This document shows, one piece after another, positions 13,086-43,216 of a stretch of DNA of 64,000 nt. A model generated the notes under the pieces. It saw nothing but the letters and a program-made list of their open reading frames with translations. It was not told the DNA's origin and did not search any database. The translations under genes were made by a program, and so were the position numbers. Origin of the DNA: Branchiostoma floridae (lineage: Eukaryota > Chordata > Leptocardii > Amphioxiformes > Branchiostomatidae); assembly GCF_000003815.2 (NCBI RefSeq), contig NC_049993.1, forward strand, positions 7,537,969 through 7,601,968. Direction: 5' to 3'. Every line of letters begins with the position of its first letter. The stretch's first letter is position 1.

Positions 13086-13303
13086 TTCACATTTTTGCGC
13101 GAATAACCTATATCCGTTATTTCGGATATTCGGATTTTCGGATATCAAGTTTGGGATATCGGATATCAAGGCGACAGGCTGTGGTACCAGCCTGCAATAC
13201 TTTGAAATTATTGCTAGTTGAAACTACCGTCTGTCGACTTGATTTCACTAAATACTTGGTCTTAAAACAACGGATATAGGTTCCCCCGCGGATAAAGGTT
13301 AAC
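13086..13303. mobile_element. MITE family A, copy 1
   Basis: Ends in inverted repeats: GCGAATAACCTATATCCGTT at the left, and AACGGATATAGGTTCCCCCG then CGGATAAAGG at the right. The internal block ACCGTCTGTCGACTTGAT is shared with the copies at 58072 and 61280. There is no coding potential. The left side is degraded and contains extra GGATAT repeats. Confidence 0.7.
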
Positions 13304-13347
13304 TAGCTTTACAGTTCTACATATAATATACAACGTTACAGACTTAC

Positions 13348-13524
13348 ATGGACAGCGTTGCTTGTTGCACTGGCCCCTCTGCTCCACCGGACCCACACAG
13401 CCGGCTCCACGCCCGGGGGTGGGGGTGGGGCTGTCACAGCTCCGCTGCCTCACCCGTAACCCCACCCCACACGACTCCGAGCAGGCGCCCCACGGACCCC
13501 ACGAACCCCAACCACCGTCAAGGA
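13348..13524 (-). CDS. TSP1 repeat exon (first TSP1 of the PAN-EGF-TSP1 gene)
   Basis: This 177-bp exon encodes a textbook TSP1 repeat. It has three spaced tryptophans (GGWGSWGPWG), CSESCGVGLRVRQRSC, and a final QRCP. The acceptor TTAG lies before 13524 and the donor is T|GTAAGT at 13348. Both ends are phase 1, matching the phase-1 end of the EGF exon at 17974, so the spliced product reads EGF-TSP1-TSP1. The WxxWxxW pattern is the usual site for C-mannosylation, and CSESCG resembles a Cys-Ser/Thr O-fucosylation context. The codon between the two modules reads Val (G plus TC). Confidence 0.88.
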
Positions 13525-13589
13525 CTAAGGGGAAAAAAAGGACAATTGTTTTCCCAGCGATCCTCCCATAGTCAATACGTGAGACAGAA

Positions 13590-13800
13590 AAGTAAGTGTG
13601 TTGATGTTCGTGTGTTTGTGCGTGTGTGTATTTGTATGTATGCGCGCTTGTGTCTGTGCATGTGTGTGCGTATGTGTTTGTGTGTGTGCGCGGTGTGAAT
13701 GTGAGTGTATGTACATATGTGAATGTGTGTGTGCGTATGTGTATGTGCTTGTGCGTGTGAATGCATGTGTATGTGTGTGTGTGCGCGTGCCTTTGTGTGT
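13590..13800. repeat. TG-rich degenerate microsatellite
   Basis: About 200 bp of interrupted TGTGTG/TGCGTG repeats directly upstream (in gene sense) of the TSP1 exon. Long ORFs across it on both strands are low-complexity artefacts. Confidence 0.85.
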
Positions 13801-15439
13801 TTACGTATAGCAGATGACACTTCATTAGCACGATCCCAATAGTAATTTAACATACCAAACAACTATCCTTATCATCAAACTTAGAATATATAGAAACAGC
13901 CAGACCTCCTCATTACATTGGCGCATTGGTAAAATCTATGCTAAACCTATGCTAAACATGGAAACCTCGAAACTTGAGCAGACTTGCACGAAACTTTGCA
14001 ATTTAACGTACAAAGTGAAAGCGAATACAACCAGCTGGTGTCTTATAAATAGATCAATATAGAATAGCCTAATTATACCTACAACTACAAGGTCGGTATA
14101 CATGTATGACCTATCCTTGATGACATGAGGATACTCTAAAAATAGATATAATGCCGAAATGATATCTTGATAGAATAGGTGAGCTCGCAAGATTCTGGTA
14201 TTCTGTTCAGGCTAAAAATATCGAGGCACTCAAATAGACGCCCCGTATGTATTTCACAGCTCATCATAGATAGGGTGTCATCATTCGTTCCTATTGTTGT
14301 AATAGCAGCAAAACCTAAACCTGAATTCATAAGTAGACATGCTGTTGAGGAACAGGGACATGGCACCATCATTTACGATACTGTGCATCCCTTGTGGGGA
14401 AGGAGAACATCTTATTTTATTGTGTCTTATCAATACTGTCTCGATTCTGTCTCCTTCAGTCTCCACGAGACTGCTCTCTATCATAAGTTTACGAGTGAAG
14501 GCAAGTGAGTCCTCCTATTGAGTGTGTACTACATGTTTGCTTTGACAGCCAATCTGTCTGGTCTACTGTTGCGTTTTCCTCCTTGTCAAACACCATTTCT
14601 CTCTCTATTTCCGAATACGCCTTGAATGAATGAATGTACAGATGATTGGAAGGGATGAGTCTAACAGGAAATGGCGGATGTCTAGTTGCAGTTTGCGATC
14701 CTCCTGCACATTTCCGATATGATTGAAGATGTATAAAAAACACATTCACTTAACTACGCCTGCGTACAAAGGTTCAGATATAACGTCCTTGGCAGATCTA
14801 TGTACATGTTGGTTGCGGCGGGACACCTTCCGTTTCTGCAAGAATCTAATGATTACGTACGTTGTAACGAGCTTGGCGAGGTCGTTTTCATTTGATGCGG
14901 ATTCGATGCAACCAGCGCCAAGCGTGCATTTGAATTCCAACTTTTTCGCCATAATAGAATCTTAGTTTGTTAACCTGAATAGAAACATAAGCAGTTTAAA
15001 CTGGTCGTCAAGATGGTGCCTCACTACCGACAGCATCAGGACAAGGTTCTTCATCGGCAGAAGGTCAACGAATTCAAAATTGACACCGATTGAGCTTATA
15101 TTTAACCATATTACATTGCACGGAACTCTGGGATCATATCTATGAACACCGGTCGACCCCTGAATATATCGCGATGTGACGGAGAGGAAACCAGTCGAAT
15201 CACGGCTGAAAATGATTCTTTTGAGCTGCAGAATCGTCAGGTGAGCCATTTTCCTGCCGTGTGACACCTATCTATCGTTCTCAATGAACAATCATTTAGA
15301 ACTTTTTAAAATCATATTTACTTTTGGACAAACAAGGGCAATGTGGGATGTGGGACTGCACTTAACTCACTTCATTCAACTTATTTTAACAGTGTCACAT
15401 ACACAACATGATACGATGCAGGCCATGTGGGGAGTGGGT

Positions 15440-24110: not shown

Positions 24111-27100
24111 CTGCAGGATGGGAATAAAGAAGTATTCAATATTCTAACCATCGACAAGAACTGAAGAAAACTAAAAAATAAGAGAGTGAAACCTAAAGGC
24201 AAGGTGCAAAATTAATACCCAATTCTAGTAAGAGTGACGGAAAAGAACTGTTAGGGAAGAGCATTTAGACTAGAGGACTGATCTTCAATCTTTTTCTTTT
24301 ATCTGTAAATACATTTACGTCTAGTTTCCTCAGTTCACAACAAAATTATAAAAAATTAATAATAAGTTTATAGCAAGTTCTTCCTCGAGGGAATTGCAAG
24401 TGACATACGAAAGAGGTATAACAAGATAGCAAGTAAAGAAAGGTTGAGATCAGAATTTTATGCAAAGCAGACTTGCCTCTTGCCTTCAAACCTTTAACCA
24501 ACCTGCTGAGTAAAAGGGTCCAGGCCAAACGGGTCAGGCTTTGGTGGGGCCTGCTGGAACAATAAGTACAAACATTTACTCTTACAGTGAGATCAGAAGT
24601 GCACTTGACACAGCACTACATCCACCTTGTTCCCTCCACAAAACGAAATGGAACGGGCCTTTGGAAGGGCACATATCCCCACCCCTATCCCCTTCAGATA
24701 CGTGTATGCCAATCACAAATCACCTACTTCTACAACTCCCATAGTATTTACATGCAGACAAATCAAGTTATTTTTGTGGCTTATTGAGGCTCTCAAGAGT
24801 TTGAAATTGATCGAGCAAGCAGGCAAAATAAACATGAAAAATAAAAAATAAATGAGTATCTTGTGATAGACCCAATGCTGTACTATCGGAAAATTCGGAA
24901 CCATAAAGTTCCAGGATGCTTAATTTGTCAAGCAATGCATCGTCTAGTACATTTTTTGTGCATTGACAACTGGAAAATTGTAACAAGAAAGACAAGTACT
25001 TTCATCCAGGACCAAATGTGCCAAATGTGTATTTTGAGGTTGATTCATGTCCTTTATGATGTACAGGTATAGTACTGTTACATGCAGTACATGACACAAA
25101 AATGTAGAATATGGGGCTCCCAACCACTTACATGTTTATTTGTTTTTTGAATGATCCAAAAAGAAATCCTGAATGATTTATGTGATATTTTTCCTCTCAG
25201 TTTTATAAAGAGAAAAAAAAGCTGCCGAATCTGAGAACCAAGAAATAAAATTGGTCAGCCCACATTTTTCTCAGAACTGTTGACATCAACAATACTGCAG
25301 ACTAAAATTACATGTTTTATGAATCTGGCCTCGATATGCAAAAAAAAAATGCTATATTGTGACATTCTGCTTCAGCATGTTGGTAAACAAAGAGTATGTG
25401 TAACAGTTTACTTTGCTGAACAGAACTGATTTTCTCTGACAAAAACATTTTATTCAAATTACACAAGGCTGGATTTAATAATATTCTTGCATGTACAAAA
25501 ATAAGCAAATAATTTCTTTGCTTTCTACAACTCTCATAATTGGCTATCATGATGATATTGGTATGGAGATGTATGGATGCACATGGCAGCATTGTCAGCT
25601 CCCCAATTACAATATTCTGTCATAATATAATGTGAAGGATTATCCATGCTGGAACAAACCCATTAACAGCTTAAAGGTGAAGCCCTATCACCTTTTCAGA
25701 TGTCAACATGCAATGGTTTGGATGAATTTTTAATGTAACACATTGTGCGCTCAAACATTTTGCTACATAATATTGCTACAATTGTTATTGTAACCGTACC
25801 ATTGTCATATAAACTGCAGCAAAATCCTACCTTTGCAGCACTTTTGCTGTCTCCACCTCCGAAGTCGAACGGTGCGAACGGCTCGTTTCCGAACGGGTCG
25901 TTGCTGGGTGCTGCAGGGTTTGCTGCAGGGGCCGCCGGGGTTGGGGCTAACGATCCTAACCCGAACGGGTCTATCTCTGCCGTTGGTGGGGCGGCCGCTC
26001 GTGTCGGCTTGGGGGGAGCGTCTCCAAACGAATTCCCGAAGCCGAAAGGATCTGACGAAGCCGGGCCGTTGGCTGCTGATCGTGGAGCTGGGGTCGGGGC
26101 TGCCATCCCGTTGGCTGACGGCCTTGGTGGTGGAGCTGGCCCTGTGAGGTCGCCTCCCAGTAGCGGGGGAGGAGGGCCTGAGGGCGGGGGTTTGCTCTCC
26201 GCCTCTTCATCTGCTTCGATCCCCACGGCAGAGCCGAAGTACGCAGAAAAGGCATCTGACGTGCCCTCCACGCCAACCTCGTCGGGAGGTGCCATCTGCT
26301 TCTTGTCTTGGTCGGCGGCATAGTCTAATAAGTCTGCGAACGGATCTGGTTGTGACTTTTTGGGCTCCTCTGGGGGAGGGCGTCTGACTAGCGGCTGTCC
26401 TGCTGTGTTGAGTGCAGGGCTGGCGATGGCCGCCGTGTTCAGCCCGACCGAGGACGTCGTGGCGTTGAACGGAGAGGCCCCGAATCCCGCGGGGCTACCA
26501 AAACCGGGCTGCGCCATCATCGGAGGGGACTGCATGGTGGTTGCCATCGGGGCGGTACCAAAGCCCTGGCCAAATCCTGCCTGTGGTTGGTTAAAGCCCA
26601 TGGGAGCCTGAGAGAAGGCAGGTTGCTGGGCCGGTGGTGCAGTGAAAGACCCTCCGAAGGGATCGATCTGCTGTTGAATGCCGGGGCTGGCGAAGGCTTG
26701 GTTTGCCGGCGGCTGGTTGCCCTGCACAGGGGAGGAGAATGGGTTACGGTGATGCATGTTATGTTGTGACACTGGCAGCAACAAATGGAGGTGGTAATGT
26801 CGCAGCTATGTCTGGTACTAATGGTCCCCGACCTCAATGAATAGAAATGCTCTTGATGGGGCCAGTGTAATGCAGTTCTGGGGATCCAATACTCCGCTCC
26901 AGTAATAACAACAATTATTCATGATAGCTTTGTTATTCTCGAAGCAGATTTGAGGCTGCAACCTTTAAACTGCCTTTGTACCAACTAGAAACAAAAGATT
27001 TTTCATCACATAATTCTCAGAGTTTGTCCTGTAAAATCTGCAATCAGAATTTTTTTAACACCAATAACTGTGCTCCCAGCCACTAAGCTGTGGTGAAGAG

Positions 27101-30100
27101 GTTGACAAGTGTTGTTGCCCAGAGAACATCGATACACAGGAACACAGAGCCTTTACAGCTACTGGGGTTTGTTCAAATACAACTTGAGAAAAAATCAATT
27201 CCAGGATACCACTTCCCACAGCATCACAGCAGAGTTTGTGTGCTTTTGAACTTCCACAGAGTATGACTTGAGAGTGAAGCCAATACAACATACACAGATT
27301 CTGCCTGTCATCATACAATCGCTCCTGAATATGCAAAACAGCAGTCATGTTTTGTAAACAACCCCAGACTTATTTCTCTTACATACCAGCTGCTTCAAAG
27401 TGAAAGCAGTTATCACATTTTAAGCAAAGAACACATTTTCCTGGAAAAACTGGTGTATTGAAACAAAAATTCTTTTATTCAAATTGTTTTCCCTTTTCAA
27501 ACTGATTTTGGAACACAATTTTTAGCAAGACATGATTACAATACTATAGTCCTTTCAGTTGGCCCTTATCATGTGCATCACTATACGGAGAGAAGCCAGA
27601 CGAATTTGCAGCTTCGTGTATTAATATTCCACCTTTTGTCACCACAGAAACAACAACAAAATGTGGGTCGATGCACCCATCACAAAGGACAGGATTTAGA
27701 GGTTTATCTTTTGTACTCATGCTTTTCCACCTGACAGGATACATGGTGATACTACTCAAGCAGATACTAGTACTACTTATTTCATTCAGAACTGCACTAC
27801 ATTGTCATGCAATTTGTAAACCCTTGAGAACATAGTCTCCTTTAAAAAAACTTCTGGATGGCTAGCAATTTCTTTTTTTTTGCGCTCTTTTATGATCATT
27901 CGAGTGTTCTGATATGGCACAGCTTAGTCAGTACACCATAACATTTGAGCAATCAGAAAACAACGCAAGTCTGCCAAAAAAAATGCAAGCCACCTGAATG
28001 TCTGTAAAGGAGGCTGCCAGAACGGGAAATGCATATGGAGCACACTGATCATTACTTGTCTCTGTATGACACAATGCTACAATCCAACAAGTAGAACAGC
28101 CCAGACTGATTCCTAGGAGTGGTGTTGGGTGGGGCAATGTGAGTTTCTGGCATTGCAGACATTTGTTTTACATGGTTCTATACACCGGAGCACTGTGTTC
28201 TGTGTCCCACAGTCCATGAGTAAGTGCTTACTCATGCACTGTAGCCTAGGACACACAACTTTTACCTATTGCATAAAATTATGGCAGACTAAGAGAAAAC
28301 TTTTCATAAGTACATAATGATGCAAGTTAAAATCTATAAGTGTCTCATGTCATAATGTTTCAATTGGAATCATACATGTAATCATAATAAAGTTCCATAT
28401 AACTTATACACATTAAGTCTTTTGAACACACAAAAAACAGCAAACACAAACACAATACAGATGTATGTAACACTGAACATGCACCATGCAAATCAGGTTA
28501 GATCTAGAGCTAGTGCTGAAATACAAAATGAAAGAACAAAATGGAAGATAAAGGCTCGTGGTCATGTTAGTTTGGAAGAAGACAGACTACAAAACAAATT
28601 GCAATACATAACAAACCAATGGAGAACATGCAAGTTGGAATCATCAACTACAAAGTGATTGTTGGTAGCGAAAGGAAAGTTTTCAAAAGAAAGTAAAAAA
28701 AAAAACACACTACCCTCCACCAAAAAATTAAGAGCACCACAACAACCCACACCAAAAGGGGCACGTATCGGTACTTTACCCGTCTCTCACTGTCCTCAGG
28801 GAAACTTGTAGAAATTGCTGACGTAGCTAGAGTAGACGAATCGGCAGAGGTCACTCTAAAGGAGTCTCCGAACGGGTCACTTTTTACTAGGTCCTTATTT
28901 ACAGGGGTAGAAAACACAGTTTTCGTCTCTCTTGTGACCATCCCTCCAGTGCTGTAGCTTTGTGTGAAGGATGTGGTTGGTTTGGAGAAATCGCCTCCTC
29001 CAAAAGGATTAACTACGGGAGTTGTCGAAACTCCGTTAACAAATTCTTTTCTATCTACCGTGAAAGGAGAGTCACTGAACGGATTGGACTGTGATTGGCT
29101 GCTGCTACTTGAAAACGAATCGCTCTGATTGGCTGACTGTTGGAAAGGAGAATCTGCAAACGGATCATCGAGAACGCGGATGACCCCGATTTGCCTCTCG
29201 GGTGACGTTTTACTGCTTCCAGAGTCCAGACTTGGGAAGGACGGTCCGCTCGATTGGCTGCTAGTGTCTGAATGTAAACTTGTCTGGGATTGGTTAACAG
29301 GAGTCGACTGTAAGACTGGCTGTGATTTGCTATTAGGAGGAGGAGGGAGAGAGACTGCCGACAGTTGGCTGGAAGGACTTGGTTGTAATTTGGACTGTGA
29401 TTGGTTGTTGACAGGGGTTGGTATCAAGACAGGCTGTGATTGGTTGACAGGTATGGGTTGCAGAGGCTGATTGGCCTTGATTGGTTGAAGCAGACTGTTG
29501 AGAAAATCATCACCAGGCGTTGTTGCGGAGCTGCCAGGGAGACTAGATGACCCCACAGGGGTCAAAATTTCATTCTGGAAAACACACAGTAAAGGGCAAA
29601 TAGTAACCATACATGATGGTACAGCAAAGGCACAGAACAGACATCCTGGAAAAATGAAGGTTGAGGAAATCAGGTACAGCTAGGTACATACAGGTATAAT
29701 TACAGATTCAATGAAAGGAAAGGGACCATGTCAGAAGTACTCTCACAAATAAATATGCATTAAGTTAGTAGAATCACACAGTTTTGACAGAGGATTGGCA
29801 TTAAAGGGATTCGAATATATGCACATGTCACAGATGAAATGACATCTAAAATTAAAAGTACACTGTTGGAAAATAAATATGTTTGTTTGTTTACTTGTTA
29901 AGTCATTGTGAACTTTTGAGACGGCCCCTCATGGGTACCCCATCACCAGTCTACACCAGATCAGCACCATGGACAGAAATGACAACCATTAACTTTCAGT
30001 AGTCCATAGGTACCACATGTACCAATACTGGTACAGCAGTACACTGGAGTGCTGAAAGTATATGCATGATGGCACCCTCATCCACAGACAAGGACAATAT

Positions 30101-33100
30101 AAAATACTTCCAAGTCAAAGCTTTTGAGCAATGATACCCGACTTATTAGCATTACATCCAAGGATGAAGCCAGGCCTATCAACCCAATTAACACTGAGCG
30201 TTAATAGAAAAAATTGTCACCATTTACCTCAATTTAAAATAAGGACTGGCATTAAATAATAATTCTGCGATACTTAAAAAAAGACACAACAGCAAGTTGA
30301 AGGCCTTGCTACATCCTTGAAATGTTGGAAGGAGAAAGGAATAATATCGAGAGAAGGAGACAGAATGGATGTCGGTCAAGAACATTAAGTTAACCTCCAG
30401 CAATCTATGGTTACCCTTATGCACCCTGGGATGTTAGACCACCAAGGGTTAACTGCACACAAAAATGACTCTTGTTCTTCATGCTATTTGACCCATCACC
30501 ATAGAAAAGATCTAAGAGAGGGAAGAAAACTTTTTGAGTTAATGTTCCGAACTTTCCACCTGGAATGAGCCTCTTTATTTAGAAAAAGATAAAATATTTT
30601 GACAGCTACTGGTCATAGTTTGAATCTAATCAATATTGGCATGTAAGTACTTTGTAAGCACAGCCAAAATAGGTATCAATACCATATACATAAAACAGCT
30701 CTGTACTAGTTGTCATTCTGATTTTTTTTAGTCCACTTTTCTTTACATCTTGATCCTTTATCTGGACAAGAAATTGGAGATCTGACAAAAATAGAAGAGG
30801 GTTAACTTTTGAGGGGGATGGTCTCATACCAAGTGAAAAGCACAATGGTCTCTCACTACCCAAAAGTACTTCCACCAGAAAATCGAGAGTGCAGCATCCA
30901 AATACCAGCGTCACGAGACTCTGCGATCTCTTCAACCCCGGGGAGGTCTTGCGCCTCCGTGCTGGCGCCTGCGGTGCAACAGGTTCCGAGGCTGAGTCCT
31001 GGCTATCTATGCTACGGAACGGATTGAACGGATTCTCCGGCTTTTCCGGAATAACCTCCATTTTACGTGTTGTCGGTGGTGCCTCTTCCAAAGAACCGAG
31101 GGAGGACCTGAAGGGATTTCTAGACAGGGAAGGAGGCGGCTCGGGTTTTTCTTGGTGGATAGATTTGATCAACTCTAAACGAGCCTTGTCGAACAAGAAT
31201 TGGTCATACTCACTGGACGGGGTAGCTGCCTTGGGAGTTTCCTGATAAGTTGCAAAGGGATCAACCCAGTCAGGACTAACAGGAGATTTTATTGTACTAC
31301 TAGACGACATCATACGTTCTCTTGAAACCTCAGGAGTTGGTGTAGTACTAGTAGGAAAGTTGTCACCTTGAAGAGGCTTGTCATGTGCTTGCAGTGTTTG
31401 ATTATCAGGCTCTTGAGCAAAAGGATTGAACTTAACCTTATTATTTAGTGTTTCTTCTGATGCTGCCTGAGGTTTATAAATGTGGTTTGGTGTCTGGCTT
31501 TGTGGAATATTGCTGTTCTCTGACAACACTACTGGACTGCTACCATTAAAATGGGCGTTATCAAATGTTGTAATTGCGTTATTGTGGTTTGTTGACTGGC
31601 TTTGTGGAATATTCCTATTCTCTGACAACATTGTTGGACTGCTACCATTAAAATTCCTGTTTTCAAATGTTGATATTGCACTTGTTATAGGATGGGACAG
31701 CCTTGGCACTACAGAACTAGAAACAGTTGTTGGTTCTTTCACTGGAGGAGCATTTGTTGTATTTTTCACAGAAACATCAAAACGATTATCGTTTACCATT
31801 GGGGTAGGGTCCTCAAAGGACTGCCAATCCTCAATTTTCATACTGTTTCTACTCTTTGGTCTACTCCTAGCAATGTCACTATTGGAGCCAAGCTGCCTCC
31901 TGTTTTTCCTGAATAAGGAGTCGTTATTTAGGGATAACTTCCATCTTTCCACAAACTTGTCCTTGTCAAAGGCAGCCTTATCTTTCTGGATAAATTCTGT
32001 AGTGGAAAAGAGGCCGAAGGAGGGTTTCTGGTAGGGTGTTAGGCTTGGTGATGCGGTATTAAGGACAGGGGTAGAAGCCCACGGACTCAACCTCGACTGT
32101 TTCAACCTCTGGAAAAAGACATAAGTAGCAGGGATGGCATTAGTACAATGGGGGTAGGTAGGAGGATAAGGGATGTCCCCAGAACTTTTGAGAGCTTTAA
32201 ATATGCCAGCATATGTAGAGAGTGTGAGATAGCTTAGCTGATAGAGCACTGGTTTTGTAATAAGAGTTTCCTTTGCACAAATTGGTCAAAACCCTACCAG
32301 TTCCTAACAAACTTCTATATACAGTAGAAGCCAGTTAACTGCACAATGGATTACCACCCACTTCTGTTAAATGCACGGAATCCCCAAATCCCAAACNNNN
32401 NNNNNNNNNNNNNNNNNNNNNNNNNNNNNNNNNNNNNNNNNNNNNNNNNNNNNNNNNNNNNNNNNNNNNNNNNNNNNNNNNNNNNNNNNNNNNNNNGGTG
32501 CAGTGCAGCTCGATACTTTTTCGTGATGCACCATTCACCAGATATTTCACAAAATACACTGGCAATTGGAGTGTGCAATTAAACAGCTTTGACTGTACAT
32601 GCACTACAGTATAGATATGCTGTGCATTCTGTAACTAGCAACTCATTGATTATTCGTAACATTTTGAAAACTGGGGAAAAGCTGGAGACATCCCTCTCAT
32701 TTACTGATAAATACCCAAAGAGTCGATCTCAAAAGTTCACAACCAGAAGTGAGTATGTTCCATAACACATGCATAGCACCATTGCCAAGCAAGCTTGGCT
32801 TTTATAGCATACTCAGTTTATAGTATATACATTGTGTAGTAAATTGAAAATGCGTAAGCGGCATTGCATGCTGTATAATTTTGTATATGGGAAAATGAAC
32901 CTGAATAACAATACTCAATTATGTGAATACAAAAATCTGAGCCAAATTGATCAAGAGAAAAATTTGTATCCAATCCTTACGCATCAGTCATTAACAGAAG
33001 CATGTCAACGTATCAACATAAAAGATTAAAAAAGGAAAATGACAGAAAGCATTGGAATGATATGCACTCAAGTCACACCACAATGCAATGGCAATCAAAT

Positions 33101-36100
33101 GCATGAAAACGTTTCATGATAAAATTACAAATATTAACATGAAAGAAACACATACAACTTTGTGAGTATACTCAATGCTTTTCAGATTAGTAGGCTTTCA
33201 TTCCATTCTTAATAGCGGCGCAAAAAACACAGGGTTGGGAGACATCCCTTGTGAGAACAATTGTTGTGTATCTAGTAAATGCATGTATGTGTGTTTGTTT
33301 TGGGGTGGTATTAAAATCGTACCCCACTATTGTGCAAAAGTCCTTCAACATAGACTATGATTGGTAAAGTTAATGTCTGTTCCAATGTTTACAGTAGATT
33401 TTACAATGTGGCGTAAAAGCTGATACTGATCCCATAAATTATTTGTTCCATTCAAAACAGGAAGATTTATTTTTCACTCACATATTCAACAGGAAAAGAG
33501 GAAGTAAAAATATGAATGTGTGCTTTGCAACAGCATTCATCGAGTCGAGAAATCCATGGATGTTTAATTTATTACATGGTAAAACCAGTACAAATGGAAG
33601 GTATCAAACATTGTTTACACAAGCCGAAAAAGCAGTTACTGTACAATATGTTAGCTGCTACAACCAAGATATTGAAAAATAAAGGTTATGTTTACCACTG
33701 GGGCCACAGGGGAGCCGAACAGATCTTGTTGTGTGGTGTTGGGAGTGTTCGCAGTAGAGTCTGGGCTGCTGAATGGATCGTTGGGCTGGGCAGCAAAAAG
33801 GTCTGCCAACTTGTCCATGTCTTTGATTCCCTGGAATTAGAGAAGCAAGATTTACATACACAGTAAATAAAGTATGGAGAAAATGTGGTTGCATACATGA
33901 AAATGTTGCTGCTAAAGGACTGACTGCACTGTGTACCTTGCCAATGCTCCGAGATTCTGCAAATATGACGAGCAAAAAAAAAACACTTTTGCACACTGGG
34001 ACCCTGACAAACCAAGCTCTCACGACTCTACTGTTACTGCTGTTAAGTACTGCGGTAAAGATCACAGTAAGCCAACTAACTCAGCTGTAGGACTGGCTAT
34101 TGGACACAACATTAGCAGCAATCAATCATCATCAGTGTTCTTTATGGACAAACAATAAAAACTCCCATCTGACTATCACATATGTTGTTAATACATTGCA
34201 GATAATAACCCTTACACAAGACTATGATTCTTTGGACACCTTGTGCTCAAATCATTAAGCTAAGCAATGTTAGCTCTACAACAGCTGGCCTTGAGCCAAT
34301 GCTGTCGTTCATATTCCAATCACTAGATGGCATTGCTATGTTGTTTCAGGCAAATGGTTTACTGCTGTACATAAGATATAGGTTGATTTTAAAATGTTAG
34401 TCTGGCATATGAAAATCATTTCCAAGTAGTTTGTTTTATTTCTTACGAGTTGCAATTTCTTCTTTGTCTGTTGTTCCAAAGATTTTGACTGCTTTGCATG
34501 TTCTTAAGGAATGAGGCTTGGCTAGATCATAGTTTGACTTTCAAGGCATATAGTTCTATTCATACATGCCAAATACTAGTTTGGTCCTAATTTCTTTTGC
34601 AGGAAAAAAATGTTTCATCTTGCTTCCACAACCACCCCAAGGACTGATTGTGAACATTTTACACTAAATCTAACTCAGCTCACAGGTAAAAGGTCAAGGT
34701 AACAATTCTTGGAATGCTAGCTCTACTTATCATTTGTAATCACCTGAGAAAGTTCCGGCCCTGAATCAAACTGATTATCTATGCATGTTTGCACAAGAAG
34801 TACTCAGGTACAAAATGCTGTGATTAAAATATCTCTTCCTTCCTCTATTACTGCTCATGGAGCCAAACCAACTTTTTATTTTGAGTCTGTTCCTTAAAAA
34901 TTTTACTCACTGGACTCTTCAATACTGATACACATTTCAACCTTGAACTGACATCATGCAAATTGTCAGTATAGTATTCTCAACAAACTCCAGTACTTCA
35001 GAAAAGCCAAAGAAACTCTTCCACCAAAAGCCAAGAGATTTTTACAGCACGATTGAAATAAATTTTCGTTCGACCATTTCAGACAATAACTGAGAAATCA
35101 CATGTGTATTCATGAGTGAATATTCTGAGTAACAATGCAAGATTTTCATCTTTATCTTTACAAAACAAAGCAGAAAGTATCAATTCATTTGATGTTAAAA
35201 TTCCTAGTCAAAAGTCAAATTTACATTCAGCATAACCGTGGTAGCTCCACAGTACATGTTAGTTACATGTACATCAACACAACAGCAATCTTAATCTGTA
35301 GCTCACAGCACTTTTGCGATAAATTTTGGCTCAGAAAATAAGTCGGAAATCACATGTGTTAAGATGAGTGAATCTAATGATTGCCATGAGCAATGCAAAA
35401 TTTCCATCTTCATTCTTAATAACTAAAGCAGAAAATTTCAATTCATTTTGTAGATGTTAAAATTCCTACTCAAAATGATGAAACCATTTGCAAGATGTCA
35501 TCCAGCATAACCGTGGTATGTTAGTAACATGTACATAAATACAACATACAGCAACCTTAGTCTGTAGCTCATGATATCAGTAAAAACAAAACTTACAGTC
35601 TGCAATGACTGAAGCTCCTCTTCAAGATCCAGCAAATTGCCAACCTGTGCACCAGCCTGGAAGGCAGGCGAGGAAACTGGCGTTAGTGTCCGTGGCAAAT
35701 AACTCCTGGACTTGATCATGTTAGCAGGGCTGATGCCATACAGCAAAAGTGCAAGTCACAAGCCATATGTGTATGATTATTGTCATTTCAGCCATGTTGC
35801 CATCAGAGAACCCTCTCACGCAGTACATACATTCAGCAAAATAAAAAAGAAAATGTGAAACTCCAAGGAGGCAGAGTCATTGTTGGTTACCTTGGTTTCC
35901 TCTGCACTCTGTTCTGCTGCTGCAGGTTGGGCTTCTCCATCTTGTCCTACTGGTTTGTTGGTGGGAACCTGGGAAGAAGAAGGAATGACGTCTCCATGAG
36001 GTATGAGGCTTAAGGGGGTGAAAACCAAAGGCTGTCTCCAACTTAGTTCTTTTCCCAGTCATTGCTTGGAAGCCAAAGTTGTGAATTTTCATTATTAGAT

Positions 36101-39100
36101 CCGTCGTTTTAAACTTATGAAAATACACTTTCTCCAGATTTCAATTTCATGCCAAAAAGTTCAAATTTTCTGGATGTATAGGGTGAGATTTTTGTCTGTC
36201 CGGACAACCAAATTTACGTCCTGGAATGGATGAACATGTCCTGGAGACAGCCTTGGTAAACCAAACCTTTGTTACATACAGTCAAACCTGCACTAGTGAC
36301 CACCTCTGCATAACGACCACCTGACCAATTTTTTGGGTGATTCCTTACTTTCCCCATTGACCCAAGCATTAAAAATCCTGTCTATAGTGGCCACCTGTCT
36401 ACTATGACCATTTTCAAGCCCTGGTCGCTATAGACAGGTTTGACTGCACCATAAGGCAATACTTCTTGTGAGTACTCACACGAGGCAAGCAAGCAGTAAG
36501 CTGCAGCGTGTTGCTATTAAGGTGGTTGGATGAAAGCTGGCCCTGTGTACACAACAGTAGACAGCAACAAACGATAAAGAGCACAAAACAAACAAAAACA
36601 AGAAGACGTCAGAGATGCAATTTTGAAAAAAGCAAGCATGGTAAACTGTAGCACAGGAGGGAGATAAACAATGCTTTTCATGAAATGAAATGGCATGAAA
36701 TTTGACTGCAATCAGAAACCTAGCTAGCATCATAGACAATAACCATGCAAGCAATAGTTTGCCCTGCTATGGAGCAAACTGCCACAAGCATGCAATGTAC
36801 ATGCAATTTTTTAAAGATTTCAACAGACTTTCACAACACTGACAAAGAATGCCATGCCACAAAAGTTTACACACAATAAAGGGAAAAGGAAAGACATTCA
36901 AGGAAGGGAGAAACAAGTCCAAAAAAGTACCACACTATAGCCAAGCCAATTCTAGACACAGCTATACCTGGTAGATAGGTTCTCCCGTAGAAGAGTCATA
37001 CGAGCTTTCGTTTGTAGGGCTTCCTTTGTCTTTGCGTCTCTTTTTTGGACTTTTTACCTTTGTAGATTGGACAGACTGGTCCAATCCATGCAAGCAGACA
37101 GGAAGACAAATTGGGAGAGAAGACACAAAAGTGAAACAGGTAACAATCACACATTTAAGGACAGTATTCTTATAACTATCAATTATTTGAGCCTTAAAAA
37201 TGCAGAGCTAAAAAACTACTGGTCCTAAACAATACGACAACAATGTAAGCAGATACAACTTTTTGCGAGTGTTAGTATTACTATATAACTGACTTTTACT
37301 GTATAACTAAGTTTTTTTGAGAAAGATAATTCTATGGTGGTCTTCACAAAATGAATAAATGATTTTGGATTCTTTAGATTCGAATGAAGTTGATGTAAGT
37401 ACATGTATCGTACATGTACCACTATCAGCACAGAATTTTTGCTGTAAATGTTAAGTATCAATGTACAGTGAAACTTGTCTAAGAAGACCACCCTGGGGAC
37501 CAGTGCAAAGTGGTCGTTTTAGACACGTGGTCTTCTTGTGCAAAGAAAGAAAAAGTGACAAGATAGGACAGACACAATGATTTCAAAGTTAATTGTCTTT
37601 AAAATAGTTTAATTCCACGAACCTGTACATTTGCACGTGAGAACATTATCACTGTTGAACTGTCTATCTGTATGATTCATATAGTATTGTTATACCAACT
37701 CATGTAAAATTGAAACGTTTCCAAAATTTAGGGCTATTCTTTCACATTTTCGTTGCTTTTTGTAGCAGGAGCAGCGTCATTTTTCCCGCCGGCATTGTCT
37801 GTCAAAAACTTGTGAATGGGCGACACCGTCAAGACAATGGTCCATATTGCTACAAAAACATCGCTGTTTTCAGTGGAGAACCCGACGCCCCACGTGCGTT
37901 TTGAAATGCGATTTTCGTGTTAACAACGCTAATTGCCTATCTTTTTACTTTGTGAATCTCAGCCAGCGGGTCAGAAATAAGTTGGGGAGCTTACCGCCAT
38001 AACAAAAAGCATGCGCACACATGCCCGACAAGACGGGAACCTTCTTTCAAATCGGCAGCACGGCAGAAAAATAAATGGTTCATTTCAACGTTGTTACCCA
38101 TGAAAATAATGTGAGTGAGTTTGTTTCTCTTCTGGTGCGGGTCTTAAAGTCTCAACGCTGCCTAGAAGGCGAAAATTTGCCGAGAAAAACAAGTTTAACC
38201 CCACCGACGCTTCTAACCATGAAGATGTTGACAAATGGACGCTTCACTAGAAGCAAGGGTGAGCAGTTTCTCAAAAAGACACACATGCACCTTTTATTCT
38301 CTGATAAAATGTGTTATAAAGTCATAAAGATATCTTATATCTGTTATCTTTACTTCAAACAAGTTTTATGAAAATAAATTTGCAATTTGTACGGTTTAAA
38401 TGTAGAGTACAATAACAACGCACGCAACATTTCTACCTACACTCCAGTGGACTTGCCCAATGACACCGTTTGACCTCTTGGGCGCCATGTTTGATTTTGG
38501 CTCGGCGCGATAACAGAACCAAAACACACAGATTTTGCCGTAATTTCCCGGCAGTTATGATAAAAAATCGATGTTCTTATACTCTTGAAAATAACGCAGT
38601 GGTTTCGGTAACATTTTAGTTGCCAAAACACAAGCCAATTTTAGCGATATTTCTCGCGATTTATCATCAAATATCGACAGTTTCTACAGTCTTGAAAATG
38701 ACGCAGTCGTTTCGGCAAGTTTTCTTCGCCAAAACACAAGCCGATTTTAGCGGATTTCTCGCCAGATATCATAAAAAATCGAGGCCGCTACACACTTGAA
38801 AATGACGCGGTCGTCTTCGGCAACATTTCGGTCGCGGGCGGACCGGATTCGGGGTGGTCGCGGTCACAGAAGACAAGTGGTCGCCTTAGCCACGTTGCTT
38901 AATGCTTGTGTCTATGGGGAGGAAAATCGGGACCGGCCAAAAGCGGTCGTAATAGGCCGATGGTCGTCTTACGGACGTGGTCGCTTATACAAGTTTCACT
39001 GTATATCCTCCAATAGCTAATGCAGTGAAAAAGTCAGGGACAGTCACTGAAAGGTTGTCAATAAAGAACCTTGATGAACTTATTCAAAGGTTTTGACAGC

Positions 39101-42100
39101 AGTAGATGTCACATTCCAAAAAACTTCCTATTGTATTGGCCAGAGGCTTTGTCCATTCTGTCCAGAGCAAATTGAAGATGAATATCACTGTATGATTATA
39201 TGTTCCAAATATTCTGAATTACCAATTCTCTATATTTCATAGACAAGAATTTATCTCAATGGACATGAATGTAAAAGCCTCCAATGATTGTAAAAAAACA
39301 CCTTATCCCATACTTCACACTCCTGTATTAGTTAGATAAGCTATAGAACTGTAGTTACATGTATGCAGATGCCATCTTTGTACCTTGTACATTTGTTGTG
39401 CAATAAAGTTATCATTATTTGTTGATACCTCATAGATGTGTTCCTCAATGGATGTGTCTTTGTACCCCTCATTACACAGTCCATCTAGCAGTATAGTTTC
39501 AGAGTCTATCAACTTTTTAATCCGAAGAGAGAAAGCACAGCAGGAAAAGGCAGAACAAGGGAACAAGTTAGTGAGAGAGGAAGGACCAACTGTAGTAAAG
39601 TGTGCAGTGTGCATTAAACAGAGAGAGACACTGTGGAGATGAGATAGAGGTTAGGGCTCAAGATACTTTCTTTTGGTGACATACTATAGTGCTGTAGTGT
39701 TGTTAAAAGCTCTACATGCAATTCAGAGAAGCTGTCTAATCAAGTTGCTGTTGCAGTGCTCAAAATATTTTCTTCAGCCAGGTTGCTCAGGCGGCAACCT
39801 GAGTTAAAAGCCAGGTTGCGCCATCAACATTACAGGTTGCCCCACTTCTAAGTTATTGCTTTCTTTGAATCAGCTACATATCCATTATATGTATCTTCTT
39901 ATGTTTTAGCTTATCAAGAAATAAATATAAAAAAAGCTTATGCATGTAGGTGGGGGAAAAGCAGTGTTCGAACTGCAAAATTTCATGTTCGCACTGTGCT
40001 ACCTGAGTTTAAAATTAAGTTGCGCCAAGCAAAATGTGGCTGCATTTGCAAGTGCAAAAGTGGGTGTTTCGTGTTTCGAGCACCGCTGTCCGACTACAAC
40101 ATGACGTTTCGTACACTGTTGATAAGCCTAAAATCTTGTCCCCTACCAGGGCTTGAAATACTTTTTTCTGCATACCTGCACTGGTGCAGGTAACATTGAA
40201 AATTACCTGCACCAGACAAATTTTACCTGCACCACTCTGAATTTAGAAAGTAAAGATCAATCTGTTCAGGAACCATTGCTATTTTTTTCTGTTATACTTT
40301 ATAGGTCAATGCAGTTAATAACAACCCATGTACAGCTACATTATGGGAGTATGCGTAAAAACCCGGCACATGGACCAGTGCAGGTTGGGTGCAGGTAGAC
40401 ACCAGAAACAACTGCACAGCTCCAATTTTACCTGCACCAACCTGCATATGCAGGTGGTATTTCGAGCCCTGCCTACAATGCCAACTGGCATGCAAATTGC
40501 AGGTATGTATTTTGAACCTTGGAGGTTAAAATGCCTCTAGATAGCCATAAATTACAACATCTACAAGTATAGGAGGGATAAGAAAGAGGTTAATGCTAAT
40601 ACAAACATCTACACAAGGTGCTACTTCTATTGCTCTAGATGCTGCCTGACAGGTATGATAGCCATTTTCAACCCAATTTTTACAAATATTCTAAGCATCA
40701 CTTTCATGTAACCAATCAGCACATAGATCATACATGTAGCTATATTTCTGCCCCGTTTAAGTGCACTGAAATGAACTATTCTAAAATCCAGTTGCATGAA
40801 AATCAATGATGCATCAAAAGTTGGCGTGAAGGACCAAGGACATTTGTAATCTCAAAGCAGATCATTGGGAGACAACCAGTGTCCATGAGAGCCAGTTGGA
40901 CACTGTTCAGTCCTTGAATACTGTCTTTGCCTCTGATAGATCTGCTTGGAGATTAGGACATTTGTACCATTGAAGAAAAGTACATTTAGTTGTATTTATC
41001 TATTTATCTATTAATATTCTCCAATACAGTAGAAGGTATGGCAAAACAGTTGTTTCTTGTCAGAAGACAACTTTTCAAGGCCGCCATAGCTATATAAGTC
41101 AAATGCATCCATTGGAGATGCATGAATATTAACGACTTCATACCTGGTAGTAGCTTTCACCGTTGGTGGGATCTGTGGTGCCATCCTGCTGGGCTTGTTT
41201 CTTCTTGTCCATCTCTGCTTTCTTCACATTGTACACCGTCTGGAACAGGTCTCGGATGGACAACACCACAGCTTCGGCCTGGAGAAACATTTCAGTGGAC
41301 ACGTCGATGAAGATTAGGCATCCAGATCCAGGTAATAAGATACACCAAATAGCAGTTACTCAAACACCTGGATATGATATTGGAAATGGCCAGATATGCA
41401 AAAGAGATGTTTCCTATTGGACTACCAAAAACTGTCTTTACCTCTTTTGCATGTCAATTCCTAGTTGGGATATAAAACCCGCTCTCCAACAAGATCTCAC
41501 AGACGAAAGATAACGGATGTTATCAAAAACGTCTGACCATTTCCAAAATCATATCCAGTTGCTTGAGAAATTGCTATTTGGTACATTTCAGTGAATACTT
41601 TCATCTTCTTGATAAGTTGTAAGGAGTTTGATGCTATTGTGACATGTTGGCATTACATTTCTTGTCGACTTTTTATTTGAGGTTTCATTATTATGTTTTC
41701 CCCAACAGGGAAAACAAATTGCTTCTGCTGGTGTGTTGTTGTTCTTCTTCTTTCTTTTCCTTCAGGGAAAATATGCTGCTTTTTTTTTGCAAAAATATTA
41801 CCTTTCTGGTTGCACATACTTAAGACAAAGATTTCACACAAACTACTGATAACAAATTTTGGCCCACCTGCTTTTCTGTCTTGATGGCGAAGAACTTGTG
41901 CTGCCCCTCCCCTGGGCTGAAGACCCAGCCAAAGGCTCTGTTGTCTGTCACATCCCGGGCTATGAACGAGATCTTGTGCACAGGGTGCCGGTGGTTGATC
42001 GCCTGTTAAGAAATAAGTCATAGGATTACAAACAAACTCCCTTCTGACTATTTTGTCAAAGTATGTAAAATTCTACTTTATGTCTGTATGCTTTCTGTAT

Positions 42101-43216
42101 CCAGGGTTGGCTGCTGACCTCCAAAAAGAACCCCCCGAACAAGGCCGAAGTCCCTAACTTCCGGGGTTCGCACGCCATGCGCGCGCAAAGTTGCTACTTC
42201 GGGGGAATACCCTATCCCGGATATATCTGGGTTCGGCACACAGGACATGTATATGTGTGCCGGGTATATCTGGGTTTGGCAGTTTAAGGGTTAAGTCTAT
42301 TCATTTCTAACATATACTCCAAATACACATCACAATTGATACTTAAATATCATCATATCATAACGTAATCATATTATTATTATTGCTGCTTGCTTCTCCA
42401 CTCTCCCTCTTCTAAATGAACACTTACATAATACTAACTTTAAGAAATCCACATCTCATTTCATTGAAACATCTATTTCAGACTCCACAGTCTGTATTAA
42501 ATATACTTACACACTAACAATGCTAACAAATACAACAATACTCACCCCAGAGGCCAGATCTATGATCTTCAGACCCTGGAGGGACACACTGATGGTGATG
42601 CGCTGCTTGTGGGCTCCTGATGCCTTAACTGCAAGCTAAAGTACGGAGGAAATAGTCATGAGAAAATACATATTCTTGTTTCATTTTTTATCATAACTGA
42701 CTACACTGTAAACAAATGATTCTTGATTTGAACACATTTAGCAGGATATTGTTAGTAATTTGTTACTCAATTGCTCAGAACCATGACATGTACAAATTTT
42801 ACTTGTGTCTTAGACATAGAATTTTAGAAATACATTTGTGTTTTCCAGTCATTTTACTCGTTATAAAATTCATACTACCATGTCTTTGGATATCATCACT
42901 ATTTGTTCCAGTATAACTAATCTGGTCACATGACTTACATTCATCAATGTATTTGTACCAACAAATAAGAGTGCCAATAAAGTTTAGGTAATTGATCACA
43001 ACTAAAGACAACAATTCACAATATCAACTACTCTTGAGCTCAACGTACCTTGAGCTTGTTCATGGAGTCCTGGCACATCTTGTCCCCTCTTGCAGCCTCC
43101 ACATCATCAATACCTATCACCTTGCCCTTGAAGACCATTCCGTCCCCTTCATACTGTTTGACCTTTTCTTCGGCTGTTAAGGGCTCCTTCTTGCCCTTCT
43201 TGACTGTGCTTGCCAT
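24066..43216 (-). CDS. DAB: Disabled (DAB1/DAB2-type) endocytic adaptor, complete coding region
   Basis: Fourteen coding exons give up to 1319 aa: 43216-43049, 42635-42546, 42002-41868, 41278-41144, 39512-39429, 37057-36968, 35968-35891, 35656-35597, 33830-33696, 32108-30906, 29574-28780, 26721-25831, 24553-24503 and 24110-24066. Every intron is phase 0. Residues of about 25-165 form a Disabled-type PTB domain ([50 protein letters not shown]), which binds NPxY tails and phosphoinositides. The rest is disordered, with about 11 DPF and 6 NPF motifs for AP-2 and EH-domain binding, and a SAYF...VGI segment like the myosin VI site of DAB2. Tyrosines at the ends of exons 4-6 recall DAB1. The protein is much longer than vertebrate DAB1 or DAB2 (about 500-770 aa) and combines features of both, as expected of a pre-duplication ortholog. 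Cargo and Reelin-type roles are inferred from the family. Confidence 0.93.
24503..24553 (-). CDS. DAB: Dab exon 13: 17-codon double-DPF exon
   Basis: Reads [17 protein letters not shown] between acceptor TTGTTCCAG and donor CAG|GTTGGT. Too short to stand out as an ORF; it is found by motif, splice sites and phase 0. Confidence 0.85.
25831..26721 (-). CDS. DAB: Dab exon 12: 297-codon DPF-rich exon with SAYF motif
   Basis: Acceptor TGTGCAG before 26721, donor AAG|GTAGGA. It encodes [34 protein letters not shown] (similar to the DAB2 segment that binds myosin VI), a PPPP-rich SH3-ligand-like stretch, then SDPFGFG, IDPFGLG and [11 protein letters not shown] content is much higher than in neighbouring introns. 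It contains long opposite-strand frames that are shadows. Confidence 0.92.
28780..29574 (-). CDS. DAB: Dab exon 11: 265-codon Ser/Gln-rich exon
   Basis: Starts [14 protein letters not shown] after acceptor TTTTCCAG and ends EDSERR at CGG|GTAAAG. It holds repeats of a QPxxxxPVNQSQ type, then [28 protein letters not shown] and SDPFGDSF. These are clathrin-adaptor and EH-binding peptides in disordered sequence. Confidence 0.88.
30906..32108 (-). CDS. DAB: Dab exon 10: 401-codon disordered NPF/DPF exon
   Basis: From acceptor TTTTTCCAG to donor CTG|GTATTT, phase 0. It includes [11 protein letters not shown], a [13 protein letters not shown] segment, two similar repeats (FNGSSP..LSEN.NIPQSQ), [20 protein letters not shown] and ENPFNPFRS, and ends with a basic [14 protein letters not shown] stretch. 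The exon resembles in role the large alternative exon of vertebrate DAB2 that separates long and short isoforms. That parallel is inference. Confidence 0.88.
32322..32595. mobile_element. pogo/Tigger-like MITE interrupted by assembly gap
   Basis: The left end is CAGTAGAAGCCAGTTAACTG and the right end the complement of CAGTCAAAGCTGTTTAA. Both are flanked by TA (32320-32321 and 32596-32597), as in Tc1/mariner-type insertions. The middle is unknown because of the N run. Confidence 0.6.
32397..32496. other. Assembly gap (100 N)
   Basis: Exactly 100 N, probably a placeholder of unknown true length. It lies in the Dab intron between exons 9 and 10. Confidence 0.98.
33696..33830 (-). CDS. DAB: Dab exon 9: first DPF segment
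   Basis: Forty-five codons beginning [20 protein letters not shown]. It also contains [16 protein letters not shown] resembles the conserved DLFGDM segment of vertebrate DAB proteins. Acceptor ATTCCAG and donor GTG|GTAAAC are phase 0. Confidence 0.88.
35597..35656 (-). CDS. DAB: Dab exon 8: short acidic leucine-rich segment
   Basis: Twenty codons, [20 protein letters not shown], with acceptor CCTTCCAG and donor [17 protein letters not shown] resembles an acidic clathrin-box-like segment (LLDLE). Confidence 0.85.
35891..35968 (-). CDS. DAB: Dab exon 7
   Basis: Twenty-six codons: [20 protein letters not shown], then SAEETK. The acceptor CTTCTTCCCAG is strong and the donor is AAG|GTAACC. Its first two residues complete the YQVP motif begun in exon 6. 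Confidence 0.88.
36279..36446. mobile_element. pogo/Tigger-like short MITE
   Basis: Inverted ends CAGTCAAACCTG at the left and CAGGTTTGACTG at the right, each followed inward by GACCACC/GGTCGCTATAG-type text. Left flank is TA; the right flank has changed to CA. Confidence 0.65.
36968..37057 (-). CDS. DAB: Dab exon 6: basic patch and YQVP tyrosine cassette
   Basis: Thirty codons: [20 protein letters not shown], then [10 protein letters not shown]. The acceptor is ACAAAG before 37057 and the donor [17 protein letters not shown] could act as a nuclear or phosphoinositide-binding basic patch. Splicing to exon 7 creates EPIYQVP. Confidence 0.82.
37466..39001. mobile_element. 1.5-kb non-autonomous pogo/Tigger-like element
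   Basis: CAGTGAAACTTGT at the left is matched by its complement at the right end, and TA flanks both sides. Inner termini carry GACCACC and GTGGTC motifs. The right third (about 38535-38810) contains three diverged copies of a 115-bp unit with CTTGAAAATGACGCAGTCGT and GCCAAAACACAAGCC. No transposase ORF remains. Confidence 0.72.
39429..39512 (-). CDS. DAB: Dab exon 5: 28-codon tyrosine cassette, probably alternative
   Basis: Reads [19 protein letters not shown], then TSIEEHIYE, from acceptor TTAAAAAG to donor GAG|GTATCA, phase 0 at both ends. It starts with LI directly after the YYQ of exon 4 and ends in IYE directly before a Val. The acceptor is weak (purine-rich near the AG), which fits a regulated exon. 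The translation has no database check behind it, so its exon status rests on phase, splice sites and motif placement. Confidence 0.68.
39754..40088. mobile_element. hAT-like MITE (first of a pair)
   Basis: Left end CAGTGCTCAAAATAT; right end, read inward, CAGCGGTGCTCGAAACAC. The interior repeats CAGGTTGC and CAACCTGAG. No transposase. Confidence 0.55.
40147..40471. mobile_element. hAT-like MITE (second of a pair)
   Basis: Ends CAGGGCTTGAAATAC and GTATTTCGAGCCCTG are inverted. The interior has at least six ACCTGCACC/GGTGCAGGT units. Only CCTAC matches between the flanks, so the target duplication is uncertain. Confidence 0.65.
40846..40957. mobile_element. MITE family C, copy 1
   Basis: Ends GTAATCTCAAAGCAGATC and GATCTGCTTGGAGATTAG form an inverted pair of about 110 bp. 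The same termini occur at 52500-52627. Confidence 0.55.
41144..41278 (-). CDS. DAB: Dab exon 4: PTB C-terminal helix and linker tyrosines
   Basis: Encodes [20 protein letters not shown], the C-terminal PTB helix, then a charged linker ending GESYYQ exactly at the donor CAG|GTATGA. The residue after the joint depends on the next exon: YQLI if the cassette at 39429 is used, YQVK if it is skipped. A MITE lies about 35 bp upstream of its acceptor. Confidence 0.92.
41312..41590. mobile_element. MITE family B, copy 1
   Basis: A left arm with CAAATAGCAGTTACTCAA and GGATATGATATTGGAAATGG is matched inverted at the right by CCATTTCCAAAATCATATCC and TTGAGAAATTGCTATTTG. The element begins about 35 bp from the acceptor of Dab exon 4. 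A second copy is at 62455-62692. Confidence 0.7.
41868..42002 (-). CDS. DAB: Dab exon 3: PTB core
   Basis: Forty-five codons carrying [20 protein letters not shown] and [13 protein letters not shown], the most conserved part of the Disabled PTB domain. Acceptor TTAACAG and donor CAG|GTGGGC are both phase 0. Confidence 0.94.
42546..42635 (-). CDS. DAB: Dab exon 2: PTB domain
   Basis: Thirty codons: [16 protein letters not shown], then [14 protein letters not shown] chose the acceptor TTTAG before 42635 because it keeps phase 0 and the usual PTB length. TTGCAG, a few bases further, would break the frame. The donor is GGG|GTGAGT. Confidence 0.9.
43049..43216 (-). CDS. DAB: Dab exon 1: start and first part of PTB domain
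   Basis: Starts [18 protein letters not shown], a basic N-terminus, then [20 protein letters not shown] and [14 protein letters not shown] at 43216 is the first in-frame Met, in an AGCAGCATGG context. The donor is AAG|GTACGT. The 5' UTR part of this exon appears to begin after an acceptor at about 43296 (TTTTCACAG). Confidence 0.92.

Follow-up and report, generated by a model that had tools for sequence, protein, structure and literature searches.

Does amphioxus already possess the exon arrangement on which the splice switch of vertebrate DAB1, a gene of brain development, operates? In DAB1, as described in two papers (PMC3232236, PMC3044655), the skipping of exons 7 and 8 (105 nt together) turns Y185QTI into Y185QVP, and the tyrosine sites comprise two YQxI and two YxVP motifs (Y185, Y198, Y220 and Y232). 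The isoforms compared are named Dab1-L and Dab1-E. Reports of the switch cover the brain, retina, liver and intestine of vertebrates. Because skipping-based motif switching is published for the vertebrate gene, only a pre-vertebrate origin would be new, and it was such an origin – a splicing-tunable phosphotyrosine switch – that an earlier note on this locus proposed. A literature search combining Dab1 with cephalochordate gave a paper on Crk as its sole match, with both mentions of Dab1 in reference titles; a search for YQVP with Dab1 gave no match.

A Disabled gene on the minus strand

The DNA analysed (the window) is a 64,000-nt stretch of the Branchiostoma floridae genome (GCF_000003815.2, NC_049993.1, 7,537,969 to 7,601,968 of the forward strand). 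The exons described here are predictions from its sequence and lie on the minus strand. Exon E1 (43049..43216) runs from an ATG and holds the start of a PTB domain (...MNKLK), which continues through E2 (42546..42635) and E3 (41868..42002) and ends in E4 (41144..41278). The PTB region matches PF00640, and among PDB chains it matches DAB2 (6.7e-54) and DAB1 (2.1e-46) along residues 16-163 (of 176), with PTB domain-containing engulfment adapter protein 1 as the next best molecule at 7e-15. This N-terminal, DAB-type PTB is accompanied, towards the C-terminus, by endocytic motifs: a clathrin-box-like LLDLE (within NLLDLEEEL) in E8 (35597..35656), DPF in E9 (33696..33830), four NPF and one DPF in E10 (30921..32108, end approximate), two of each in the open frame of E11 (28900..29574, end approximate), and one NPF and five DPF in that of E12 (25831..26790, start approximate). 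When the 513 Mb assembly was searched for the protein, all four matches (4/4) fell inside this window, which makes the gene single-copy in this assembly; a second copy or allele, sought in the assembly for a measurement of selection, was not found. We take the minus-strand gene to be the single amphioxus Disabled (Dab) gene.

The description of Dab as having a DAB2-like endocytic body holds: the PTB is nearer DAB2 than DAB1 (185 vs 161 bits), and the LLDLE motif and the many NPF and DPF motifs are further likenesses to DAB2. The two differ in that the Pfam model of the DAB2 sulfatide-binding region remains below its cut-off in amphioxus Dab (12 vs 27 bits), and we know of no tyrosine linker of the kind described below after the PTB of DAB2. 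We read the amphioxus gene as standing for the state that preceded the split between vertebrate DAB1 and DAB2. Drosophila Disabled is likewise a PTB adaptor, the tyrosines of which can be phosphorylated, according to PMC9454125. As to the pathway, Reelin_subrepeat-B (PF21471) is matched 29 times within a single 29 kb interval of the B. floridae genome (C5:13.389-13.418 Mb), repeats from which the presence of a Reelin gene may be read; published work reports crka1 and crka2 transcripts in B. floridae and VLDLR in B. belcheri.

Tyrosine motifs at predicted exon joints

The proposed switch lies in the exons that follow the PTB, in a linker that we expect to be disordered. E4, which also carries linker sequence, ends GESYYQ (Y174, Y175) before the intron sequence gtatga; E5 (39429..39512, 84 nt) reads LI...HIYE and is followed by gtatca; E6 (36968..37057, 90 nt), with a basic, NLS-like patch, ends EPIYQ and is followed by gtatag; E7 (35891..35968, 78 nt) begins VPTNK. 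The predicted joints E4|E5, E5|E6 and E6|E7 are all of phase 0 and yield YQLI, YEVK and YQVP, such that the introns fall within the tyrosine motifs and the two candidate cassettes, E5 and E6, are frame-preserving. The peptides given in the earlier note (ESYYQ|LI, HIYE before Val, EPIYQ|VP), with their coordinates and phases, were all recovered on the minus strand, and its range of 35891-41278 corresponds exactly to the interval from the end of E7 to the start of E4.

What these joints would produce is less simple than an exchange of one SH2 ligand for another, as had been supposed. Because E7 supplies VP to any preceding exon that ends in Tyr plus one residue, each of the four combinations of E5 and E6 keeps exactly one YxVP – including an E5-E7 joint, which would make YEVP and had been overlooked. 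The single YQxI after the PTB (YQLI) requires the inclusion of E5, the only exon that adds it. YQLI and YQVP resemble the DAB1 sites, as had been claimed; the middle motif, YEVK, at the second position, fits neither the YQxI nor the YxVP pattern, and a second YxVP is absent from E7 at the place of Y232. An alternative in-frame acceptor of E6 18 nt upstream, at 37075, scores lower on a simple matrix (-3.4 vs -1.9); with it, the E4-E6 joint would read YQSV and the E5-E6 joint YESV.

Such motifs might be a by-product of the splice consensus: CAG|GT donors and AG|GTN acceptors yield Gln-Val at phase-0 joints, and the motifs would then have no meaning for signalling. Six of the eight exons do end in NAG, the donor consensus, so that Gln, Glu or Lys is expected one residue after the tyrosine; five of the seven exons E2-E8 start with G, and a Val encoded just past an AG|G acceptor is nothing unusual. 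This account leaves unexplained, however, why Tyr precedes Gln or Glu at three successive joints: Tyr is penultimate at three of eight exon ends (hypergeometric p = 8e-4, a post hoc value that counts E5). Nor does it account for the Pro-Thr next to the Val, which E7 shares with the presumed DAB1 sequence. The splice consensus favors the Gln and the Val of these joints, but neither the Tyr nor the Pro, and we regard a pure by-product as very improbable.

The rarity of such ends was gauged against open, in-frame AG...GT segments of 45-120 nt, with cut-offs that we set so that E5 and E6 were just included. Among the 168 candidates of both strands (91 minus, 77 plus), Tyr followed by Gln, Glu or Lys stands at the end of three: the ends of E4, E5 and E6. 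With looser cut-offs there are seven such ends in 471, four of them belonging to E4, E5 and E6 (the last in two versions) and three to decoys at two places.

Comparison with the DAB1 linker

The outer joints of DAB1 were deduced from the published isoform to within a codon, the text of the papers being silent on whether they lie before or after the Gln. At that resolution the DAB1 exon 6|7 and 8|9 joints coincide with the outer joints of amphioxus in their position within the motif: the end of E4 corresponds to that of DAB1 exon 6 (Y185). The earlier claim that DAB1-like YQxI and YxVP motifs are built across phase-0 joints is borne out to this extent, for predicted joints. Common to both, moreover, are the position of the tyrosines after the PTB and the change from YQxI to YQVP that leaving out the intervening exons brings about in DAB1 and would bring about in amphioxus. 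The DAB1 exon preceding VPT presumably ends IYQ, like E6, and the position of the DAB1 exon 7|8 joint is likewise presumed.

Sequence likeness was scored against a presumed DAB1 linker sequence, whose tyrosine numbering agrees with the Y185/198/200/220/232 used in the papers. The stretch from the E4 tail to E7 gave a score reached by 1 of 2000 shuffles, to which a run rich in lysine behind the PTB contributed; for the E6-E7 joint, set against the presumed DAB1 TEENIYQVPTSQ, the figure was 4/2000. For E5 and E6 it was 5/2000 and 28/2000; E7 alone against the presumed DAB1 exon 9 was not significant (211/2000). Ranked among the 168 candidates, E5 came second, the end of E4 fourth and E6 fifth; the decoy above E5 was an unrelated plus-strand segment (34 vs 33).

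The full amphioxus form would have one YQxI (YQLI), one YEVK and one YxVP, as against two YQxI and two YxVP in DAB1; the exons are longer (84+90 nt vs 105 nt in total); and E6 has a basic patch, unlike DAB1. Splice switching itself is demonstrated in vertebrate DAB1, whereas the amphioxus counterpart is known here as predicted exons.

Splice signals of E5 and E6

The donors of E5 and E6 are the weakest of eight, and their acceptors the weakest of the seven scored, the E6 acceptor (72nd percentile) being the poorest; weak sites agree with a cassette role for both exons. That skipping either would cause no frameshift, as had been pointed out, is correct but uninformative as to regulation: every exon from E1 to E9 is a multiple of three nucleotides, so that any one could be skipped without loss of frame. 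Frame preservation was rejected as a sign of regulation.

This uniformity leaves room for a rival reading in which the exon architecture is ancestral and E4-E7 are all constitutive in amphioxus (YQLI, YEVK and YQVP together in one protein), regulated skipping having arisen later, in vertebrate DAB1. In the same direction, clusters of the Nova motif UCAU beside E5 and E6 were not found – 0-2 copies in each of four 200-nt flanks, where 1.1 are expected – unlike the cluster reported to lie upstream of DAB1 exon 9B; across the whole of intron 6 there are 10 UCAU against 5.7 expected. Against constitutive use stand the cassette-like weakness of the E5 and E6 sites and an excess of UGCAUG downstream of E6: two within 200 nt (0.1 expected) and three in the 999-nt intron (0.5 expected), values uncorrected for 10 motifs and 9 regions. 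We consider constitutive splicing of all four exons rather unlikely. Two other motifs are enriched: the 200 nt preceding E5 hold four overlapping copies of CTCTCT (0.1 expected), and intron 5 holds 20 of TTTTT (9.7 expected).

E5, the weakest exon call, is the weakest part of the arrangement. Its donor and acceptor stand at the 85th and 83rd percentiles among all GT and AG of the minus strand, its codon use is unremarkable (62nd percentile of 150 decoys), with coding support poorer than that of E6, and a repeat adjoins its donor. This high-copy repeat (39113..39424, plus strand, thus antisense in intron 5; by our reading a LINE-like 3' tail) ends, depending on the copy, at 39410-39424, at its nearest a few bases from the E5 donor, where the intron starts with base 39428. 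An origin of E5 itself from a transposon was considered and rejected: of 104 candidates 40 were scored, and in these the repetition takes in the adjoining intron but not the exon. The poor sites, the decoy-like codon use and the nearby repeat would all be accommodated if E5 were not a working exon, whether decayed or false, and the gene spliced E4-E6-E7, making YQVK and YQVP with no YQLI. Against this, E5 ends Y-E where its neighbors end Y-Q, an ending confined to three of 168 candidates; it places Ile at +3 of the joint tyrosine, as in the YQTI of DAB1; it holds second rank in likeness to the presumed DAB1 linker; and its acceptor is preceded by a tract of 13 pyrimidines in 14, with no other AG over 77 nt. 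That E5 does not function we judge rather unlikely.

Discussion

The reading that we favor, and hold to be probable, is that E4-E7 form an ancestral, DAB1-like phosphotyrosine linker in which E5 and E6 are most likely regulated cassettes that set YQLI beside a constant YxVP. From this arrangement we infer how exons may be used and alternatively spliced in amphioxus Dab, and where phosphorylation and SH2 binding may follow. Phase-0 introns would divide the linker after the PTB, parting Tyr-Gln/Glu from the residues of SH2 specificity, as in DAB1 exons 6-9. With Val-Pro given by E7, a single YxVP site (Crk/Abl-type) would arise whichever of E4, E5 or E6 stands before it; YQLI (Src-family-type) would come with the inclusion of E5, and a spacer with a basic patch with that of E6. 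A Src-family kinase would phosphorylate Dab docked on the tail of an LDL-receptor-family protein, and whether YQLI accompanies the constant YxVP would depend on splicing. The claim of a splicing-tunable, pre-vertebrate switch stands insofar as weak E5 and E6 sites fit cassettes; as a statement that alternative splicing occurs it was too strong.

A more far-reaching version is possible, and we advance it tentatively, as something we would not expect to hold in full: the Reelin-DAB1 switch itself may be pre-vertebrate, the single chordate Dab already alternating between YxVP only and YQLI plus YxVP, with the NLS-like patch of E6 co-switched in amphioxus, the exons later lost from DAB2 and the sites doubled in DAB1. 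More generally, the comparison suggests that the arrangement from which the splice switch of DAB1 was made predates vertebrates. The rule would be a simple one, in which a splice junction carries SH2 specificity: the donor side gives Tyr-Gln and the acceptor side the specificity residues. If E5 and E6 are alternatively used, then the DAB1-type switch goes back further among chordates, being present in an animal that lacks a layered cortex, and amphioxus would offer a test of what the switch first did.

The Disabled gene and its surroundings

In the 513 Mb assembly the window (C15:7537969-7601968) carries a Disabled (Dab) gene on its minus strand, extending from an ATG at position 43216 to approximately 25.8 kb. 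Its N-terminal 176 residues form a PTB domain that, compared with PDB, matches DAB2 (185 bits) and DAB1 (161 bits), the following molecule scoring 58 bits; the Pfam PID model passes (37.5 bits, cut-off 20.9) and the DAB2 sulfatide-binding Pfam model falls below threshold (12 bits, cut-off 27). Because all four matches of the Dab protein in a search of the whole assembly fall inside the window, the gene is single copy in the assembly. Exons 3' of E7 (predicted exons are numbered E1 to E12) encode a clathrin-box-like LLDLE and multiple NPF and DPF motifs: DAB2-type endocytic adaptors carry clathrin-box, NPF and DPF motifs also. Within E10, a 102-nt unit is present twice at 31481-31679 (85% matches), duplicating approximately 34 residues, and a run of 100 Ns in the E9-E10 intron (32397-32496) is an assembly gap that could conceal an exon.

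Elsewhere in the window are a minisatellite (58506-58996; 6.9 copies of 72-nt units, 97% matches) that is open on both strands, a minus-strand reverse transcriptase open frame (2515-4029; 504 aa, RVT_1 2e-21), probably from a non-LTR element, and a minus-strand open frame with a Thrombospondin type 1 domain (13265-13846; 2.6e-10), probably an exon of a neighboring gene.

Tyrosines at exon joints

The peptides and coordinates that the earlier note had claimed were recovered exactly from the minus-strand sequence, where E4 lies at 41278-41144, E5 at 39512-39429, E6 at 37057-36968 and E7 at 35968-35891. The predicted lengths of E1 to E9 are all (9/9) multiples of three, with joints in phase 0. 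E4 ends GESYYQ, E5 begins LI and ends HIYE, E6 begins VK and ends EPIYQ, and E7 begins VPTNK: the joints therefore read YQLI, YEVK and YQVP. NAG ends six of eight exons and G starts five of the seven from E2 to E8. YQV at a joint is largely a free product of the splicing consensus, but the preceding tyrosine is not. Counting the two strands together, 168 candidate cassettes that are open and in frame passed score cut-offs chosen to just admit E5 and E6; three of them terminate in Tyr plus Gln, Glu or Lys, and these are the ends of E4, E5 and E6. Under looser cut-offs the count is 7 of 471: E4, E5 and E6 (the last in two versions) account for four, and the remaining three are decoys at two places. 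A penultimate tyrosine is present in three of eight exon ends (P = 8e-4, calculated post hoc).

E5 and E6 as candidate cassette exons

Splice sites were scored with an approximate weight matrix. The two weakest donors are those of E5 and E6 (-1.1 and 0.7; the remaining six range from 2.8 to 5.2), as are the two weakest acceptors (-0.3 and -1.9; the remaining five scored 1.6 to 10.6). This weakness fits regulated exons, and is also compatible with a poor exon call. For E6, codon use lies at the 93rd percentile among 150 decoys: its status as an exon is supported by this and by the match of the E6-E7 joint to DAB1. A start 18 nt upstream is possible for E6 and would alter the E4-E6 and E5-E6 joints, leaving E6-E7, E4-E7 and E5-E7 unchanged. 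Codon use of E5 is no different from that of decoys (62nd percentile of 150), and no other copy of the exon sequence was found in the genome among the 40 of 104 candidates scored. A high-copy repeat (39113-39424, plus strand) lies antisense in intron 5 and is read here as a LINE-like 3' tail; among the 40 of 1588 candidates scored, identity to other copies is 75-89% and the repeat ends at 39410-39424 depending on copy, the first intron base past E5 being 39428. We consider E5 probably a true exon.

Downstream of E6, minus-strand UGCAUG (Rbfox-type) motifs start at 36805, 36794 and 36749: two lie within 200 nt (0.1 expected) and three in the 999 nt intron (0.5 expected), with one further copy upstream of E6 at 37092. 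This excess comes from a survey of 10 motifs in 9 regions, and is only a hint. For regulated skipping of amphioxus Dab we regard the chances as even.

Comparison with vertebrate DAB1

The inner joint of DAB1 is that between exons 7 and 8. The E4 tail to E7 was compared with a DAB1 linker sequence whose tyrosine numbering is consistent with the published reports, using 2000 shuffles per test. The score, to which a lysine-rich stretch just after the PTB domain contributes, was reached by one shuffle; the corresponding counts are 4 for the E6-E7 joint, 5 for E5, 28 for E6 alone and 211 (not significant) for E7 alone. In likeness to that linker E5 ranks second of 168 candidates, E4's end fourth and E6 fifth, first place going to an unrelated plus-strand decoy.

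According to published reports, Dab1-E of human and chick, without exons 7 and 8 (105 nt in total), has Y185QVP in place of Y185QTI (PMC3232236), a pig study states in words that Y185 switches from YQXI to YXVP (PMC3044655), and joining of exons 6 and 9 restores an Abl/Crk motif at Y185 (PMC7916142). The outer joints of DAB1 (exons 6|7 and 8|9) therefore adjoin Y185-Q and precede VP. These are the places of the amphioxus joints to within one codon, the text of those reports leaving unstated whether the break falls before or after the Gln. A shared origin of the outer joints is very probable.

Predicted exon combinations and their meaning

Inclusion of both cassettes would give YQLI, YEVK and YQVP; E5 without E6, YQLI and YEVP; E6 without E5, YQVK and YQVP; and skipping of both, YQVP preceded by a double tyrosine. 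In these four combinations exactly one YxVP is thus always completed by E7, and E5 alone sets the presence of YQLI. The swap of SH2-ligand types proposed earlier is accordingly no simple exchange, YxVP being constant; the YEVP of the E5-E7 joint, drawn from the predicted combinations, goes beyond that account.

E6 also encodes PKKRRKDK (within 36968-37057, minus strand), a basic, NLS-like patch whose inclusion or skipping might affect nuclear entry. DAB1 exons 7-8 are not known to carry such a patch. A bipartite NLS is placed at DAB1 residues 20-36 in PMC3044655.

Likely partners for Dab are present: the same genome has a Reelin-type gene (C5:13388932-13417710) with 29 Reelin_subrepeat-B matches within one 29 kb stretch, and published work reports two crk transcripts in B. 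floridae and a VLDLR in B. belcheri.

Among the matches listed from open-licence literature there was no prior report of amphioxus Dab splicing. The joint anatomy of amphioxus Dab is real, and inheritance from a common ancestor with DAB1 is its most likely source; since the mechanism is already known in vertebrates, amphioxus Dab would be an older instance of an established type.
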